From the IMG/VR virus record IMGVR_UViG_3300034073_003786, positions 1-49,791 of that record: 49,791 nt of DNA; one strand, 5' to 3'. Below, one piece after another: positions 34,199-40,924 of this stretch (its first letter is position 1; each line of letters opens with the position of its first letter). A program made the translations under genes and the position numbers. Below the pieces are notes generated by a model that had not been told where the DNA came from, did no database searches, and saw nothing but the letters and a program-made list of their open reading frames with translations. Source of the DNA: a virus.

Positions 34199-35517
34199 TT
34201 TTTCTGTCCGAAGGTATCTCTGATTAGTTTCATAGAGGTATAAGAACTTTCAGTATCAAAATGGTGACATAATTCCTTTATCATATATAGTCCACTTGTT
34301 TCCTGGTCAAATTCTTTTTTATCAGAACTGCTAATTTTTGGAAAATTACATTCAATTATATTTCCAGCACTTAAATTTGTGTTTAGGGGAACTATTATAT
34401 TTAATTGTTGAGTAAACAGACTGTTATATCTCATCAAAGATTGTGATTGATACTTCTGAGGATCAGAATTTTTATCCGTAGATACATTTTGCTCTAATGT
34501 TCCAACATCTAATATTTGAGTGATCATTCTTGAAGGAATATCTCCAAGAGTCTGATCAGAACCATCAGAAACTTTTGGTAATTTTAATCTATCGCCAAGA
34601 TTCTCAGTTGACTTTACATAATCACTTTGCTTGAATAACCCTTCTTCTGGATTTGAAAATTTAAAGTCCAAGGGATTGAAAAACATTCTATGACTTGCAT
34701 ATGTCCCTAGTCTTAATTTTTCAATTAAATTTTGATTTCGATCAATAAAATAATTCAGAATCTTAAAGTCATTATTAATTTTACCACTATCTGAATAAGA
34801 TTCAACTGCTTCACTGTAAATATAAGTTGCCTTTGATTTTTCTTTATTCATTTCATCAATAGATCTAAAATTAAATCCATCTTTTGTTTGATAGAATAGA
34901 AATCCTGCTGTACCATCTTTAGATTCTACTGGTACAGATTTAGACGCTAACCAAGTTAAAATCGTAAATGGTTTTCTCATATTTCCAATAAAACCATACT
35001 TATTAGAAGTCTTATCAATTTTACCAATTTTATTTGATCTTAATACTTCCTTTAAAATCTTCTCTACAGACCCATCAATACTTAATGTTGTTGGATACTT
35101 TCTTGTAACTCTTACAGTTTCATTTGTAATTGCTTCCCTTGGAACTAAATGCAACGTAAAACTTTCTTTCTGTGTTTCTGCAATTACATCAGTAATACTT
35201 GAAACATAAAAATAGTTTTCAACTTTGCTTGCAAAATCTAAAGCAATATTTGTTCTCGTATTTGGTTTCATTTTAAGTGCTAATCTTTCACCACCTCTCA
35301 GAGGAAGCCCGTTATATAATGATTGTTTGCTGATATCTTTTTCAGTGGAGGCAGAATTTCCAGTGTTTACTATTTTTAATTTTGCAGTAACAATAGGTGA
35401 AAATATATCTTCATAATATTCAAATGCTACAATAGATGTTCTTAGATCAATTCTCTGTTTTTGATCATTTGATTCTATTAATACTGTATCGTATATGGAC
35501 TTTGTTGCTGCTTCCAT
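34195..35517 (-). CDS. 27: Baseplate hub protein, gp27-like, 440 aa
   Basis: Probably the trimeric hub ring that carries gp5. N-terminal beta domain (RTSIVAFEYYEDIFSPIVTA, KLKIVNTGNSAS), conserved loops and helices in the middle (WLASKSVPVESKDGTAGFLF), and the C-terminal SGLYMIKELCHHFDTESSYT followed by SMKLIRDTFG, which is typical of phage hub (gpD/gp27-type) proteins. Its place directly upstream of gp5, with an overlap, matches a hub-spike pair. T4 gp27 is 391 aa, so 440 aa is reasonable. The gene number is by analogy. Confidence 0.78.
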   Translation of the reverse strand: MEAATKSIYDTVLIESNDQKQRIDLRTSIVAFEYYEDIFSPIVTAKLKIVNTGNSASTEKDISKQSLYNGLPLRGGERLALKMKPNTRTNIALDFASKVENYFYVSSITDVIAETQKESFTLHLVPREAITNETVRVTRKYPTTLSIDGSVEKILKEVLRSNKIGKIDKTSNKYGFIGNMRKPFTILTWLASKSVPVESKDGTAGFLFYQTKDGFNFRSIDEMNKEKSKATYIYSEAVESYSDSGKINNDFKILNYFIDRNQNLIEKLRLGTYASHRMFFNPLDFKFSNPEEGLFKQSDYVKSTENLGDRLKLPKVSDGSDQTLGDIPSRMITQILDVGTLEQNVSTDKNSDPQKYQSQSLMRYNSLFTQQLNIIVPLNTNLSAGNIIECNFPKISSSDKKEFDQETSGLYMIKELCHHFDTESSYTSMKLIRDTFGQKK

Positions 35518-37505
35518 TAGAGGTAATTAAAATCTAAGAGTAATTTTTGTTTCATAAATTTATTTAACAGATCAAACTCAGCAATTTGACCAGAAACACC
35601 ACCACCATAAGATTTTTGAGATCCTACAGAAACTGATGGTTGTTGTGCAGATGATCTGTCATCAATAAAAAGAAACTGCTGTCCCATTCTTTCAGTTGTT
35701 ACCGAATCAGCAACTGCTCTTTGTTGTTGTGACACCGCAGAAGAAATCTGTGGTTGTTGTGCAGCAGGAGTTACTTCCTTTTCTGATGGAATTTTTGCAA
35801 GTTGAGGAGAAACCTGACTCGCTTTTGATCCTGCAGCACCATGAGATACGGTGATTCCTCCACTTCCTATAATTTCTGCTTCTCTACCATAACCACCACG
35901 ATAGTAAACTTCACCAACAGCAAAAGGGAACTTAGTTGCAGATCCTGGTTGTGAAGGAAATGTTTGTTTTGTTTTTGGATTGTGCTCTTGAATATCAACT
36001 CCTGCACTACTTCTTGCACCATGTGCTCTTTGCTCCGCAGCAATCAATGCTTTTAATTCAGAATCTGATACATTACTGTAAACATCCTTTTTAATATTTC
36101 CAAAGTGAACCCAAGATCCTCTAGCAAACATTGCTTTTACTGCTTGGAAGGAAACTTCTCTAATGTTTGCCAATTGTGCTGCAGATGGATTTGTAGTTTT
36201 TGCATCAATGTGGAAGTGAGTTGCATAGGTAGTATCACCACCACTTCCGGATCCACCTTGAATAAATCCACCAGATCCAGTCTGAGGAATCAAATTCATT
36301 GTTCCTGTAGATGTTGGTCTTGGTGGTGCAGATGAAGATTGCTGTTTTACTTGAGCAAGGACAGATTTTACCTTTTCTGGTTTAAGAGAACTACTTTGTC
36401 CGGAATATGAGAAATTTCCATACGCATTAGGTAATGCTGCCCATACATCCGCCAAACCTTGCATGAAGTCTTCGGTTTTCATTTTACCAGATAACCAAGA
36501 ATTACCTCCTTTTCCTTCAATGAGTTTTACTGCAAGAACATCTTGAACTTGTGGACTAAAAACTGTGTTCTCATTATATCCAGCCGCTTTTGCTCTTCCA
36601 AGAAGAAATTGTGGCATTTGTTGATATCGACCAGAAGCACCGGGAGCAGTTCTAGCAATTTCGCCAATAGTCATTTGACTCAATCCAGGTCTAACTCCCC
36701 CAGGAGCACCATTTTGAGCATCATAACCATTATTTTTTTTATCTGTTGATGATTCGACCGAATGTATTAAATCAAGTAAAGGTTTCCATCTTCCACCACC
36801 ACTTCCACCCCCAGGAGTAGGTGCTGGAACTCCTGAAGATTCAGTATCAGGTTGTTGTTCCCCAGTAGAAGGTATATCAACCTCCCCAGTTGGTTCTAAA
36901 AGTGCTTTAAATCCGTCTGCAATTTGTGTTCCTAATAACTCTACCGTACTAGTCAATTCCGAAAATGAATTTCTTATATCACCAGAAGAATCAGTAAAAT
37001 CTAAGTTACGTATATCTCTACTAATAAAACCTAATGTTGTACCAAATGATTGAAGAATTCGGTACATTGTTTGTGGTATAGAGTATATAATTTCTCCCGC
37101 TTTTTTCATTCTTGCAATGAATTCTTTTCCCATTGCAATCCAGGTAGGGAGATTCTCTAAAATCCATCCCGCTCCAAGATAACCAAGAAAGGATAAGATT
37201 CTACTAAGAGGCCCTTGACTACTGGAAGATGCAACTCTTAGTCCAGACTGAAAATTTGTTGTTACTTTTGATGCCTCTATTTGATCCTCATATTCTTTTC
37301 TTTTTGTTGCCTCTTTTCTTCTTCTTTCTATTATTTGATTTTTAAAGAATAAATCACTTCTTACTTTAGTTTTTGTTTCTATTATTTTTTGAATTCTACC
37401 AATTGTTACATTAGAACTTGTTAAAGTAGAACGAGTACTAGATATTGATTTTGATATTAAATTAATACTAGATGTTTGAGATATAACTTCTGCGGTTGCT
37501 GCCAT
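35517..37505 (-). CDS. Tail hub protein with lambda-R-like lytic domain, 662 aa
   Basis: Residues 1-90 are a basic, helical rod (VRSDLFFKNQIIERRRKEAT). Residues ~98-170 are amphipathic or hydrophobic. Residues 239-387 look like a lytic transglycosylase/muramidase related to lambda endolysin R: LLDLIHSVES (Glu 251 as candidate acid), ASGRYQQMPQF, FSPQVQDVLAVKLIE. A later region (429-556) contains THFHID, GVDI and VSHG, the pieces of an M23 peptidase in unusual order. It would digest peptidoglycan at injection and fits the missing lysozyme of gp5. The start overlaps the next stop by 1 nt. Confidence 0.75.
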   Translation of the reverse strand: MAATAEVISQTSSINLISKSISSTRSTLTSSNVTIGRIQKIIETKTKVRSDLFFKNQIIERRRKEATKRKEYEDQIEASKVTTNFQSGLRVASSSSQGPLSRILSFLGYLGAGWILENLPTWIAMGKEFIARMKKAGEIIYSIPQTMYRILQSFGTTLGFISRDIRNLDFTDSSGDIRNSFSELTSTVELLGTQIADGFKALLEPTGEVDIPSTGEQQPDTESSGVPAPTPGGGSGGGRWKPLLDLIHSVESSTDKKNNGYDAQNGAPGGVRPGLSQMTIGEIARTAPGASGRYQQMPQFLLGRAKAAGYNENTVFSPQVQDVLAVKLIEGKGGNSWLSGKMKTEDFMQGLADVWAALPNAYGNFSYSGQSSSLKPEKVKSVLAQVKQQSSSAPPRPTSTGTMNLIPQTGSGGFIQGGSGSGGDTTYATHFHIDAKTTNPSAAQLANIREVSFQAVKAMFARGSWVHFGNIKKDVYSNVSDSELKALIAAEQRAHGARSSAGVDIQEHNPKTKQTFPSQPGSATKFPFAVGEVYYRGGYGREAEIIGSGGITVSHGAAGSKASQVSPQLAKIPSEKEVTPAAQQPQISSAVSQQQRAVADSVTTERMGQQFLFIDDRSSAQQPSVSVGSQKSYGGGVSGQIAEFDLLNKFMKQKLLLDFNYL

Positions 37506-37506
37506 C

Positions 37507-39231
37507 TTAGATCACCACATTATAGCAGGAATATGAATATAATGTATAAAAATTATCTGGATTAGATGAACGAATCATAGGAACATCAGTCAAAGGCCCA
37601 TTTGTTGAAGTTTGATTCATTTGAGCACCTTGTTGTTGAGAAGATCCAGAAGATGCATAAATGATATTTGGTTTTGGTTCTGGGAGTTCTCCAACATTAG
37701 GTGTTTGTGTCGGAACACTTTGAATTTGTGCTGGTTGTATTGGTGAAGTTTTTGGAGGTATATTTTCTTCTGATTTTAAATTATTATAATTTTCTAGGAA
37801 ATTGTCAGTATTTCCAGGTTTAAATGTGGACGATGCATCAAAACTTAATTCTTTATTTCCAGGTAACATTGCTTGATTGGGTTTTACTTCGTTATCAGGA
37901 GGTTTTTCTGCAATTGTACTTGAAAAATCAAAAGTATTATTTGCAGAAAGATTAAATGTATTTGAATAATCTGGAAAATTTATTTTTGGTTCTGAAACCA
38001 TTTCTTGTTGTGGAGATGGTTTTAATGCTTCAGTTTTTTGTGTTGCTATTGACTCTGCATTTGCAGGCAAAACTAATGGTTGTGCAGGTTTTGCCTCTGC
38101 TTGAGGTTGTTGCTTATTTAACGATTGTGTAGGTTTTGCTTCTTGTTGAGGTTGTGATTGATTTCCGAAAAACTTATCATAAATTCCTTTGCCAAAATCT
38201 GCAGATGGACTATAAGCAAGAGCACTTGAAACCACACCACTTCCAGGAATAGGTAATAAAGATCCTGCAGCAAATGCCGCTGCTGATCCAATCATACCCG
38301 TAGTTGCTCCTGCAACTGCACGACCAGGATCTTCACCAGATGCAATATCAATACCTGTCATTGCAGATCCAACTAGTAATGGTGCTGCTAATCCTCTTAT
38401 AAAGTTTCCTGCTCCACTTGCCATACCCTTAACTGCACCACCAAGTCCACCACCAGGAGGTTTTGCTCCTCCTGGTGGTTTTGCTCCTCCTGGTGGTTTA
38501 CCTCCCCCACCAGGAGTTACTATGTTCTTGATAATATTAAATGGTGCCGCTACTGTTCTACCCAGTAACTTAGCAATTTGACTAACAGCAAACCCTAAAG
38601 AAGTTTTTAACGCTCCAATACCAAATTTTATTGCTAATATTGTTCCACCAGCAATAGAAAGATATTTGAGAATATTATTTTTAATCTCTGTTAATCTTTC
38701 ATTATTTCCTTCACCTTCCGCCTTAATATATTCAATAACTTGATTTGTTAACCATCCACCAAAAAGATAACTAAGAGATTGCAGAACATTTCCAAATAAA
38801 CTTTGCACTTTTGGTGCAAGTGCTGCAACTGGAGCAACAATTGCATTTTGTATTTTCTTCTCTATCTCACTTTCTTTTCCAATTCTTACTTGTTCTTCTG
38901 CAAGTCTTCTTTCACTTTCTTGTTGTGCTCTCAGTATGCTTTCTTCATTTGTTGCATCCTGTTGTAATAATGTAGAAATAGTGATTAAACCAGTATTTAA
39001 CTGATTTATGTCTTGTCTTATTAAATTAAGTCCACTTTGAACTTCAACTAAAGATGCTTGATTTTGTTGAAGTGTTTGAAGATTCTTAATCTCAGTTTCA
39101 CTTGGAGTTACTCCAGATAATAAATTAGTTCCTCTTATGGTTTGTCCAGATACTGTTGTATTTCCAGCAATAACTTGCCTAGACTCTTGAGAAAGAGGAG
39201 AACTTGTAAGTGGTGTGACCTGTTCAGCCAT
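37507..39231 (-). CDS. Tape-measure candidate (gp29-like position), 574 aa
   Basis: The N-terminal ~130 aa form a coiled coil (LINTL-type heptads and QQESERRLAEEQVRIGKESE). It is followed by hydrophobic segments (YLSIAGGTILAIKFGIGALK; AVAGATTGMIGSAAAFAAGS) and glycine/proline-rich linkers (GGGGKPPGGAKPPGG). The C-terminus is low-complexity and Gln/Pro/Ser-rich. Length (574 aa) is close to T4 gp29 (590 aa), the tail-length tape measure, and the gene sits right after a gp26/T-like chaperone pair, where tape measures sit in other tailed phages. No sequence motif proves it. Confidence 0.6.
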   Translation of the reverse strand: MAEQVTPLTSSPLSQESRQVIAGNTTVSGQTIRGTNLLSGVTPSETEIKNLQTLQQNQASLVEVQSGLNLIRQDINQLNTGLITISTLLQQDATNEESILRAQQESERRLAEEQVRIGKESEIEKKIQNAIVAPVAALAPKVQSLFGNVLQSLSYLFGGWLTNQVIEYIKAEGEGNNERLTEIKNNILKYLSIAGGTILAIKFGIGALKTSLGFAVSQIAKLLGRTVAAPFNIIKNIVTPGGGGKPPGGAKPPGGAKPPGGGLGGAVKGMASGAGNFIRGLAAPLLVGSAMTGIDIASGEDPGRAVAGATTGMIGSAAAFAAGSLLPIPGSGVVSSALAYSPSADFGKGIYDKFFGNQSQPQQEAKPTQSLNKQQPQAEAKPAQPLVLPANAESIATQKTEALKPSPQQEMVSEPKINFPDYSNTFNLSANNTFDFSSTIAEKPPDNEVKPNQAMLPGNKELSFDASSTFKPGNTDNFLENYNNLKSEENIPPKTSPIQPAQIQSVPTQTPNVGELPEPKPNIIYASSGSSQQQGAQMNQTSTNGPLTDVPMIRSSNPDNFYTLYSYSCYNVVI

Positions 39232-39400
39232 TATTTGATCCGTTCTTTAAATTTTCCTCTTCAATATACTGTTGAAGTAGAGAAACGTACACCTCTCTCT
39301 CCCAAGGTATCATATTTTCTAAGTCTGTCAAGCTATATTTATGATGCTGAAGAAGGGCAAAATTAATCTTATAATATGACGCAAGACTTTCATGCGCCAT
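39224..39400 (-). CDS. Small tail-assembly chaperone (T-like domain), 58 aa
   Basis: ATG 39400 is 2 nt after the gp26 stop, and the gene ends 8 nt into the tape-measure gene. The conserved-looking core is YYKINFALLQHHKYSLTDLE followed by NMIPWEREVYVSLLQQY, a pattern seen in the second (T) part of frameshifted tail chaperones ('..PWER..Y...L'). It lies in the -1 frame relative to gp26, and a -1 shift at 39409-39415 would fuse the two without a stop. Cyanophage homologues may be listed as baseplate hub assembly protein (gp51-type). Confidence 0.8.
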   Translation of the reverse strand: MAHESLASYYKINFALLQHHKYSLTDLENMIPWEREVYVSLLQQYIEEENLKNGSNNG

Positions 39401-39415
39401 TGCTAGGCGAAAAAA
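39376..39415 (-). promoter_or_regulatory. Programmed -1 frameshift signal
   Basis: Slippery heptamer T-TTT-TTC (39409-39415, in the gp26 reading frame as AGT TTT TTC), 8-nt spacer, then an 8-bp stem: ATGGCGCA (39393-39400) with TGCGTCAT (39376-39383), one G-U pair, 9-nt loop. It would yield a gp26-58aa fusion: after S-F-F come R-L-A, then the start Met of the small gene. Confidence 0.75.
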
Positions 39416-40122
39416 CTTGTCAGGCCCTCTAATACAATTTTATTTTCAACTTCAGTATTTGGATTTATAACATTAATTGTATGACTTAGTTTTGGCATCG
39501 TTTCAAAGAATTTTTCAATTTTTTTAAATTGCTTCGAACTTAAAGATTCTAAGAAATCACTTAACTCTTTTTTACTACAATCAGATGCTGCCCAAGATTC
39601 TTCTTCACTGTAAATCTGTTCAATGCAAGATGTAATAACTCCAAATGTATCCTCTACACTAATTTGATCATTGCGAATAAAGTTATTTTTGATAAATTCT
39701 GTAATTGATGGATATTTCATCCGCACACTCAGATTATCATCCAATTGAATATCACGACTATGATCTTTACTTACTTCAACCTTAATATCATCCAAACTAA
39801 TAGTTACTGGTACTTGTGTCTCCCCATCATCTGGGCAAGTAATTAATACCTCTGCAGTTTCACCTACAGATTTTCCCCTGATATTTAAAAACAAATATTC
39901 TATATCGAAAGTTGCAAGATCATCAACTTTAATTCCTCTGGTAATAATGCAATTTTTAATTACATCCTTTACTGCTTCAGTAATTTGCTTTGGTTCTTCA
40001 CTCTCCATCGCAATGATTAAAATTTTCTCTTCTTTAACTAAAAAAGGTCTATATTTAATTGTTTTCTTTAATGAAGGAATTTCCAACTCATATGTTGGTG
40101 TAGAAACTTTTGGTAATGGCAT
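39403..40122 (-). CDS. 26: Baseplate hub assembly protein gp26 (T4_baseplate family), 239 aa
   Basis: The start MPLPKVSTPTYELEIPSLKK, followed by TIKYRPFLVKEEKILIIAME, is the family signature of T4 gp26 (PF12322). I use ATG 40122 rather than the upstream in-frame TTG at 40131. T4 gp26 is 208 aa. The C-terminal helical part (KKELSDFLESLSSKQFKKIE) precedes a short tail with the slippery TTTTTTC two codons before the stop. By position and frameshift it behaves like the G part of a tail-assembly chaperone for the tape measure. Confidence 0.9.
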   Translation of the reverse strand: MPLPKVSTPTYELEIPSLKKTIKYRPFLVKEEKILIIAMESEEPKQITEAVKDVIKNCIITRGIKVDDLATFDIEYLFLNIRGKSVGETAEVLITCPDDGETQVPVTISLDDIKVEVSKDHSRDIQLDDNLSVRMKYPSITEFIKNNFIRNDQISVEDTFGVITSCIEQIYSEEESWAASDCSKKELSDFLESLSSKQFKKIEKFFETMPKLSHTINVINPNTEVENKIVLEGLTSFFA

Positions 40123-40147
40123 AATAATCAATGACTAGTGAAAATAT

Positions 40148-40924
40148 TTAGACTGCTTTTTGATTCCCAGTCAGACTTGTATATAGTTCTCCTCTTACAA
40201 TTGCTTCGGTTGGTGTTAAATTAGATGGTCTGAAAACAACTCCAGAAGTTCCTGCCTGACCAGGAGACATTGGAACTCTGGACACTCTTCTAATTGGATC
40301 ATTATTTATTGATGTATGAGTATAAACTGAAAGACTTGTTGTTCTTCCAGAAATATAACGATCATATTCGAATGTAGCAGCAACTTTTAGCACATCAGAT
40401 GTCCCATATGAGATAGGTACACTTGAAATTGAAACAGGAAATAATCCTCTAAAAGTATATTCTATTTCTCTTCTGTAATCTCTATCAAACTTTATAATTC
40501 TAGTTTGATCTGATTTATATGTAGATGGATATTGCATCCTAATAAAATAATCATTTGAAATTGGATTGGCAGAAGATCCGCTAGCAATATAGTCCATCCA
40601 ATGTTCCAGTAATTTTAAAGTATTATAATTACTATCTACATAAAATTCTAATGTTATATTAGTATATAATCTTGTATGTGCTATCTTTTCTCTAATCCCA
40701 ATATATGGTGATACTTCTGCTGTAGCAAATGACGATGTTGGTAATGATGCAGAAAAACATAATAATCCAAAATCTCCACCAGTAAAAAATGGAGTAATAC
40801 CTTTAGTCAATAAAAAAGTTGATAACTCATTTGGAAGTCCACCAAATTGAACTTCATAATGAGATGTTTGTGCTAGATTTCCAAATAAAGATTTTACGCT
40901 AGATATACTTCTGGGAAAAGGCAC
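40148..40924 (-). CDS. 54: Baseplate tail-tube initiator, gp54-like, 258 aa
   Basis: Start GTG 40924 (no ATG nearby). The protein has the tube-like fold pattern also seen in gp48 (SHYEVQFGGLPNELSTFLL, LCFSASLPTSSFATAEVS, THTSINND) and a tube-specific helix (LKLLEHWMDYIASGSS). T4 gp54 (320 aa) caps the baseplate and starts tube polymerisation. It lies divergent from gp4, with its own late motif. Distinguishing gp54 from gp48 here rests on gp48 being a better fit for the gene at 42006. Confidence 0.72.
   Translation of the reverse strand: MPFPRSISSVKSLFGNLAQTSHYEVQFGGLPNELSTFLLTKGITPFFTGGDFGLLCFSASLPTSSFATAEVSPYIGIREKIAHTRLYTNITLEFYVDSNYNTLKLLEHWMDYIASGSSANPISNDYFIRMQYPSTYKSDQTRIIKFDRDYRREIEYTFRGLFPVSISSVPISYGTSDVLKVAATFEYDRYISGRTTSLSVYTHTSINNDPIRRVSRVPMSPGQAGTSGVVFRPSNLTPTEAIVRGELYTSLTGNQKAV

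Follow-up and report, generated by a model that had tools for sequence, protein, structure and literature searches.

The window analysed here is a virus record of 49,791 bases, in which gp26 lies on the minus strand (39403-40131) and is followed on the same strand by a small open reading frame (ORF) of 58 amino acids (aa) at 39224-39400. The product of gp26, the putative short tail-assembly-chaperone form (TAC-N) read in the 0 frame, matches PF12322 T4_baseplate (E 7e-73) and phrog_150 (E 1e-80). The 58-aa ORF matches phrog_634, termed "baseplate hub assembly catalyst" (E 3e-27), and also the C-terminus of the phrog_150 profile (E 1e-6). The features at this junction, together with those of its relatives, point to a T4-like virus, related to marine cyanobacterial ones, that very probably makes a long form of its tail chaperone by a -1 slip at the end of gp26.

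The 3' end of gp26 reads GAG GGC CTG ACA AGT TTT TTC GCC TAG and contains the slippery heptamer T TTT TTC (39409-39415, minus strand, as are the other features of this junction). A Shine-Dalgarno (SD)-like GAGGG (39425-39429), which is proposed as an internal stimulator on account of its anti-SD pairing, its preferred GAG codon and its fixed spacing, lies 9 nucleotides (nt) upstream of the heptamer. Downstream, a spacer of 8 nt, GCCTAGCA (39401-39408), which includes the gp26 stop TAG (39403-39405), is followed by a hairpin (39376-39400), proposed to be a stimulatory stem-loop, which overlaps an ATG. The hairpin arms ATGGCGCA (39393-39400) and TGCGTCAT (39376-39383) form 8 pairs, one of them G-U, with 9 nt between them. 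A -1 slip on the heptamer would give FF-RLA-MAHESLASYY..., in frame with the 58-aa ORF, and the -1 segment from RLA onward (39224-39409, stop included) would be the C-terminal domain (TAC-C) of the predicted frameshift product, as judged from phrog_634, the C-terminus of phrog_150 and colinearity with T4-type gp51. The part of this segment from the ATG onward is the separate small gene "gp51" in the annotation of relatives. An original prediction, made earlier on this DNA, had claimed the heptamer, the 8-nt spacer, the 8-bp stem with its single G-U pair and the -1 reading into the 58-aa frame, all of which are found at the positions it gave; the upstream SD-like element had been overlooked.

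Relatives were fetched with five protein seeds and from 14 public phage records. For two of the seeds the 80 best matching stretches were kept, out of at least 590 and at least 598 respectively, and the other three gave 4, 78 and 2 loci. A total of 1062 phage records matched gp26, of which the 14 were taken before the counts, and 4 further gp26 loci were added later and stand outside them. The resulting 259 sequences (258 loci and the window) fall into 247 whose small domain is in the -1 frame of gp26, 7 in which no small domain was recognised, 4 that are truncated and 1 fused in frame. Among the 7, L173 and L178 are probably artefacts of the reading start in the script, L084 and L257 carry the heptamer with a C-terminal domain missed by the profile, and the rest are K474, L258 and phage T2. 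Only the 247 entered dereplication at 90% nucleotide identity, which kept 156 sequences including the window; start-codon and SD counts refer to the 155 of these with the heptamer, gapless analyses to 149 of the 155, and the ATG test to 93 with an ATG at the standard place. One relative, L009, has a gp26 100% identical to that of the window. The phage contig L258 shares 99% identity with the Stenotrophomonas phage query; its T-run differs in length from that of L257, after which it continues in a third frame, which may be an error or a variant.

Near the gp26 stop, T TTT TT(C/T/G) was found in 155 of the 156 dereplicated sequences, the exception being YC (L090). The heptamer ends 0-3 codons before the stop in 152 of the 156 and about 8 codons before it in 3 more, and the site at the standard position is exactly T TTT TTC in 145 of 152. 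The alignment of junctions that the original prediction had proposed thus bears out the heptamer in nearly all of the dereplicated relatives with the small domain in the -1 frame. The codons used are unusual for these genes, since elsewhere in them 145 F-F pairs are encoded by TTC TTT (80), TTT TTT (45), TTC TTC (13) and TTT TTC (7); the T preceding the pair is part of the heptamer definition, and the rate of T at the wobble position elsewhere is 0.40. The ORFs of the window that are 150 aa or longer contain 14,374 codon positions, of which 4 carry an in-frame T TTT TTC; the gp26 site alone lies within 4 codons of a stop, with distances of 41, 175 and 279 codons for the remaining three. At other gp26 codon positions of the 155 sequences, in-frame T TTT TTN occurs 15 times in 36,357. 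The pattern stays under harder dereplication to 107, 49 and 34 sequences, and at 65% (34 sequences) the site is T TTT TTC in 28, T TTT TTT in 5 and T TTT TTG in 1. A heptamer arising by chance is ruled out by this conservation, by the codon-position rates and by the 65% dereplication.

The upstream element is likewise shared: in 136 of 155 sequences, 8-10 nt separate the heptamer from the end of a GAGGG/GGAGG-type motif. The glutamate codon within it (codon -4) is GAG in 113, GAA in 17 and another codon in 25 of the 155, as against 1106 GAG versus 2503 GAA elsewhere in the same genes. Pairing with the 16S tail at an anti-SD energy of -4 kcal/mol or lower is reached upstream of the heptamer in 88% of the 155, at 27% of 153 gp26 starts and at 0 of 93 small-frame ATGs. 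In the window the motif ends 24 nt before the ATG and is therefore too far away to serve it.

Folding of the window alone is only suggestive of the hairpin, since a 29-nt piece gave -10.6 kcal/mol (z -2.4, with 4 of 200 shuffles equally good) and a 59-nt piece gave z -0.9 with 41 of 200 shuffles equally good. In the sequences near to the window (47, of which 45 are distinct), 98.1% of the alignment cells at the stem are paired, far more than in slid controls, and 20 cells are changed on both sides (16 from G-C to U-A and 4 from C-G to U-A), a number reached by 0 of 500 shuffles. The mean folding energy at the site is -12.9 in this near group against a background of -4.6, -10.2 against -5.0 in a middle group of 43, and -11.1 against -5.0 in an S-CAM1-like group of 25, whose displayed hairpins differ in sequence; in each of the three groups the peak of stability is tied to this position. 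Some groups pair in another register. The top pair by mutual information among 149 sequences (columns 20-34) is a hairpin pair; many other high-scoring pairs lie off the hairpin, so shared ancestry dominates this measure and it was not relied on. The internal SD, the -1 heptamer and the downstream hairpin of a dnaX-type signal are all present as sequence features, and some distant relatives show them weakly or lack them.

The T4-type phages bear on the predicted product. Gene 25 comes after gene 26 in phage T2, where the end of gp26 carries no heptamer and gp51 (249 aa) is encoded on the opposite strand; the short and long forms are thus two genes there. The gp26 of T2 belongs to the family of the short form (PF12322, E 9e-64), and T2 gp51 consists of a PF12322 domain (1-201, E 4e-55) followed by a small C-terminal domain (208-245). 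The small domain matches the C-terminus of gp51 with E 2e-7 in a two-sequence search, and both match phrog_634. Such a gp51 is found in T2 and in nine related contigs, and seven of the nine fetched contigs were used to build a profile. In a single comparison it aligned with 151 predicted fusions along 228 columns that run through the junction (hhalign, probability 99.4 and E 6e-21). As gp51 is colinear with the predicted fusion, T4-type phages directly encode the product that the frameshift would make. The gene sizes and strands around gp26 in L272, a record named Pseudomonas phage vB_PSGBLB0006, are as in T2.

The anatomy of the signal, its conservation and the homology of the predicted fusion to T4-type gp51 are established at the level of sequence. 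In all likelihood, gp26 and the small frame form one tail-assembly-chaperone locus, whose short form would be made by termination at the stop and whose long form would be made by a stimulated -1 slip. Most ribosomes would end at the gp26 TAG and release TAC-N; a fraction would be delayed at T TTT TTC by anti-SD pairing with the upstream GAGGG and by the downstream hairpin, slip back by one base and continue into gp26-FFRLA-MAHES..., the long form (TAC-NC). We infer the slippage itself, its rate and its stimulation by the SD-like motif and the hairpin. Both forms would then act on the tape measure protein and the tube subunits like gpG and gpGT of lambda, the short form binding the tape measure and the long form recruiting tube subunits, if the analogy with lambda holds. 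In broader terms, the cyanophage "gene 51" is probably the C-terminal domain of a gp26 frameshift product under a complete dnaX-type signal, with a hairpin sequence that turns over between groups, and the T4 lineage would have a second, already fused gene. The programmed -1 frameshift of the original prediction is hence well supported by the conservation of heptamer and frame, the covarying hairpin and the gp51 homology, to which the start codons of the small frame can be added.

In the open -1 frame up to a conserved leucine, 107 of 155 sequences have an ATG, 22 have only a GTG or TTG, and 26 have none of these, so that 48 are without ATG; the heptamer persists whether or not an ATG is present. 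The -1 peptide is conserved as FFR(I/L/V)xx(M/L), numbered from residue 0, and the FFR(I/L/V) residues sit upstream of the ATG. Residue 5, the usual position of the ATG, is M in 91 of 153 sequences and L in 56, an exchange by which the M of the ATG looks like any other residue of the peptide. A separate small gene is difficult to square with these findings. It could be proposed that both routes operate, the frameshift giving the long form and reinitiation in the lineages with ATG adding a free C-terminal domain, and the recurrence of the ATG at one position in 93 of 155 sequences would agree with this. The alternation of M and L at that place, the location of the ATG inside a hairpin arm and the weak or missing anti-SD pairing before it speak otherwise, and the addition of a second route is rather unlikely.

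A different question is whether the two domains are chaperones at all, since the records and the PHROGs name them as baseplate hub. In one account, T4 gp26 and gp51 are listed as hub assembly chaperones, gp51 is absent from the final particle, and genetic studies support the presence of gp26 in the T4 hub (PMC3004832). The fold was approached with L051 (2501-3397), in which gp26 and the C-terminal domain form one in-frame ORF of 299 aa without heptamer on a 236-kb virus contig that has no second gp26. This fusion may be real, with the short form lost, or may come from a sequencing error in the T-run, and it therefore served as a model sequence only. The gp26 part of the model is mostly confident, residues 241-260 (the junction and the start of the C-terminal domain) have a predicted local distance difference test score (pLDDT) below 50, and the rest of the C-terminal domain scores 59-73. 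The top three solved folds for residues 1-97 are 3fgx (Z 8.2), the HK97 tail assembly chaperone 2ob9 (Z 7.8, over 86 residues with a root mean square deviation of 4.7) and YqbN 3klu (Z 7.2). Foldseek gave 0 of 53 matches at E 0.001 or lower against the PDB (best E 0.2), and 57 matches at that threshold against BFVD, many of them named baseplate hub. Comparison with solved folds yielded no informative match for the C-terminal domain, and T2 gp51 had no match among PDB sequences at E 1. The fold match is only supportive, because a Z near 8 also comes from common arrangements and Foldseek alone is not significant. Even so, with the similarity of gp26 to the HK97 tail assembly chaperone set against the hub annotation, it is improbable that gp26 and the small domain are structural proteins of the baseplate hub rather than tape-measure chaperones. 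The earlier assignment of the two to the G and GT type gains support from the end-to-end likeness of the fusion to T4-type gp51, with the gp26 fold as a supportive point.

Several observations weigh against a conserved stimulated frameshift at this locus. None of the SD-like motifs is present in 14 of the 155 sequences, and at 65% dereplication codon -4 is GAG in 15, GAA in 6 and another codon in 13 of 34. The hairpin signal is weak in the 34 most distant sequences that remain, with -7.0 against -5.4 (z -2.0, rank 3 of 71). For the two broad clusters, RNAalifold recovered no more than 3 pairs in the one of 87 sequences and no pair in the one of 46. Of the five covariation measures in the near group, two are not beyond shuffles, namely the pairs with double changes (2, reached by 162 of 500) and the further pair types (4, reached by 372 of 500). 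Binomial p-values overstate independence, because the sequences are related. The Vibrio phages YC and K474, as well as T2, are without the heptamer, which implies a different route in parts of the wider group. Stop-restart is also compatible with the TAGcaATG of the window, where the ATG lies 2 nt after the stop, and with the TAATG or TGATG that L089, L084 and L087 have next to the heptamer. It could thus be argued that the 58-aa gene is a separate protein made by termination-reinitiation, with no functional frameshift, as the many ATGs, the separate annotation of the small frame in P-SSM2, S-RIM44 and S-SKS1, and the TAATG overlaps in the heptamer-less K474 and YC would suggest. Against this stand the sequences with no ATG, GTG or TTG, the missing anti-SD pairing at the ATGs, a heptamer kept regardless of ATG, the conserved FFR(I/L/V) before it and the fused nature of T4-type gp51, which together make reinitiation alone very improbable. 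Transcriptional rather than ribosomal slippage on the T6 run is likewise very improbable. A six-T run could in principle yield mRNA length variants, but the run mostly ends in a codon-phased C (145 of 152) instead of being longer, and the preferred GAG in the SD-like motif and the hairpin at its fixed place resemble ribosomal stimulators. K474 (L086) and YC (L090), each with a gp26-like gene and a small ORF overlapping as TAATG, represent a third arrangement besides the frameshift and the two-gene form of T4.

Frameshifting is reportedly conserved in several T4-like groups, T4 itself using genes 26 and 51, according to the 2022 abstract of Vladimirov and colleagues. The slippery sites of the best-known -1 signals differ from the one described here: lambda slips on G GGA AAG and E. 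coli dnaX, a gene unrelated to gp26, on A AAA AAG, whereas T TTT TTC is accompanied here by an upstream SD-like element and a hairpin. The likeness to lambda gpG/gpGT lies in a -1 frameshift close to where the first frame ends, which yields a minor long form helping tail assembly, and the G-T frameshift was stated in 2016 to be widely conserved except in T4 (PMC5009743). The likeness to dnaX lies in the combination of an upstream internal SD, a slippery heptamer and a downstream structure; two papers state that efficient dnaX frameshifting needs the upstream internal SD (PMC5600365) and that the signal includes a stem-loop (PMC7282821).

The original prediction knew of no frameshift described in a T4-like phage, which is outdated: Vladimirov, Gautam and Davidson 2022 (Virology 566:9-15) identified tail-chaperone genes of T4-like phages, and PMC12846349 cites this study for -1 frameshift signals of the poly-T kind in their TAC-N genes. 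The PRFect paper (PMC10885494) cites it as regards T4-like phages that, in place of frameshifting, possess a short gene together with a longer fused one, and judging from these citing papers it apparently concerns the same locus. As T4-like poly-T signals have already been cited, this kind of mechanism is known and the novelty is limited. What is added would be the comparative evidence at the locus, the upstream element, the covarying hairpin and the missing start codons, with a possible overlap with the 2022 text. A search of titles and abstract starts found none on an SD-like element or hairpin in gp26, which is no proof of absence from the literature. If the frameshift is true, annotation would be corrected, the small cyanophage "gp51" probably not being a separate gene, and the correction would also cover the public records S-CAM1 (L094), ACG-2014d (L273), S-WAM2 (L274) and AS-zj (L085, an Aeromonas phage), in which the -1 frame is open and the domain unannotated.

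Upstream of gp26 on the minus strand, a tail-tube-like gene of 258 aa (40148-40924) matches phrog_45 tail tube (E 1e-39) and PF23849 (E 1e-18). Downstream, a gene of 574 aa on the same strand (37507-39231), which overlaps the small frame by 8 nt, is a candidate tape measure by position, with a weak match to the tape-measure family phrog_794 (E 5e-4). It and the next gene (35517-37505) appear alike in plan by eye, each with a charged start and then a hydrophobic stretch with GW(I/L); the downstream gene of 662 aa has an endolysin-like region (phrog_90, E 1e-18), and either of the two may be the tape measure. Within the 574-aa gene, short repeats at 38450-38520 code for a KPPGGAKPPGGAKPPGG stretch.
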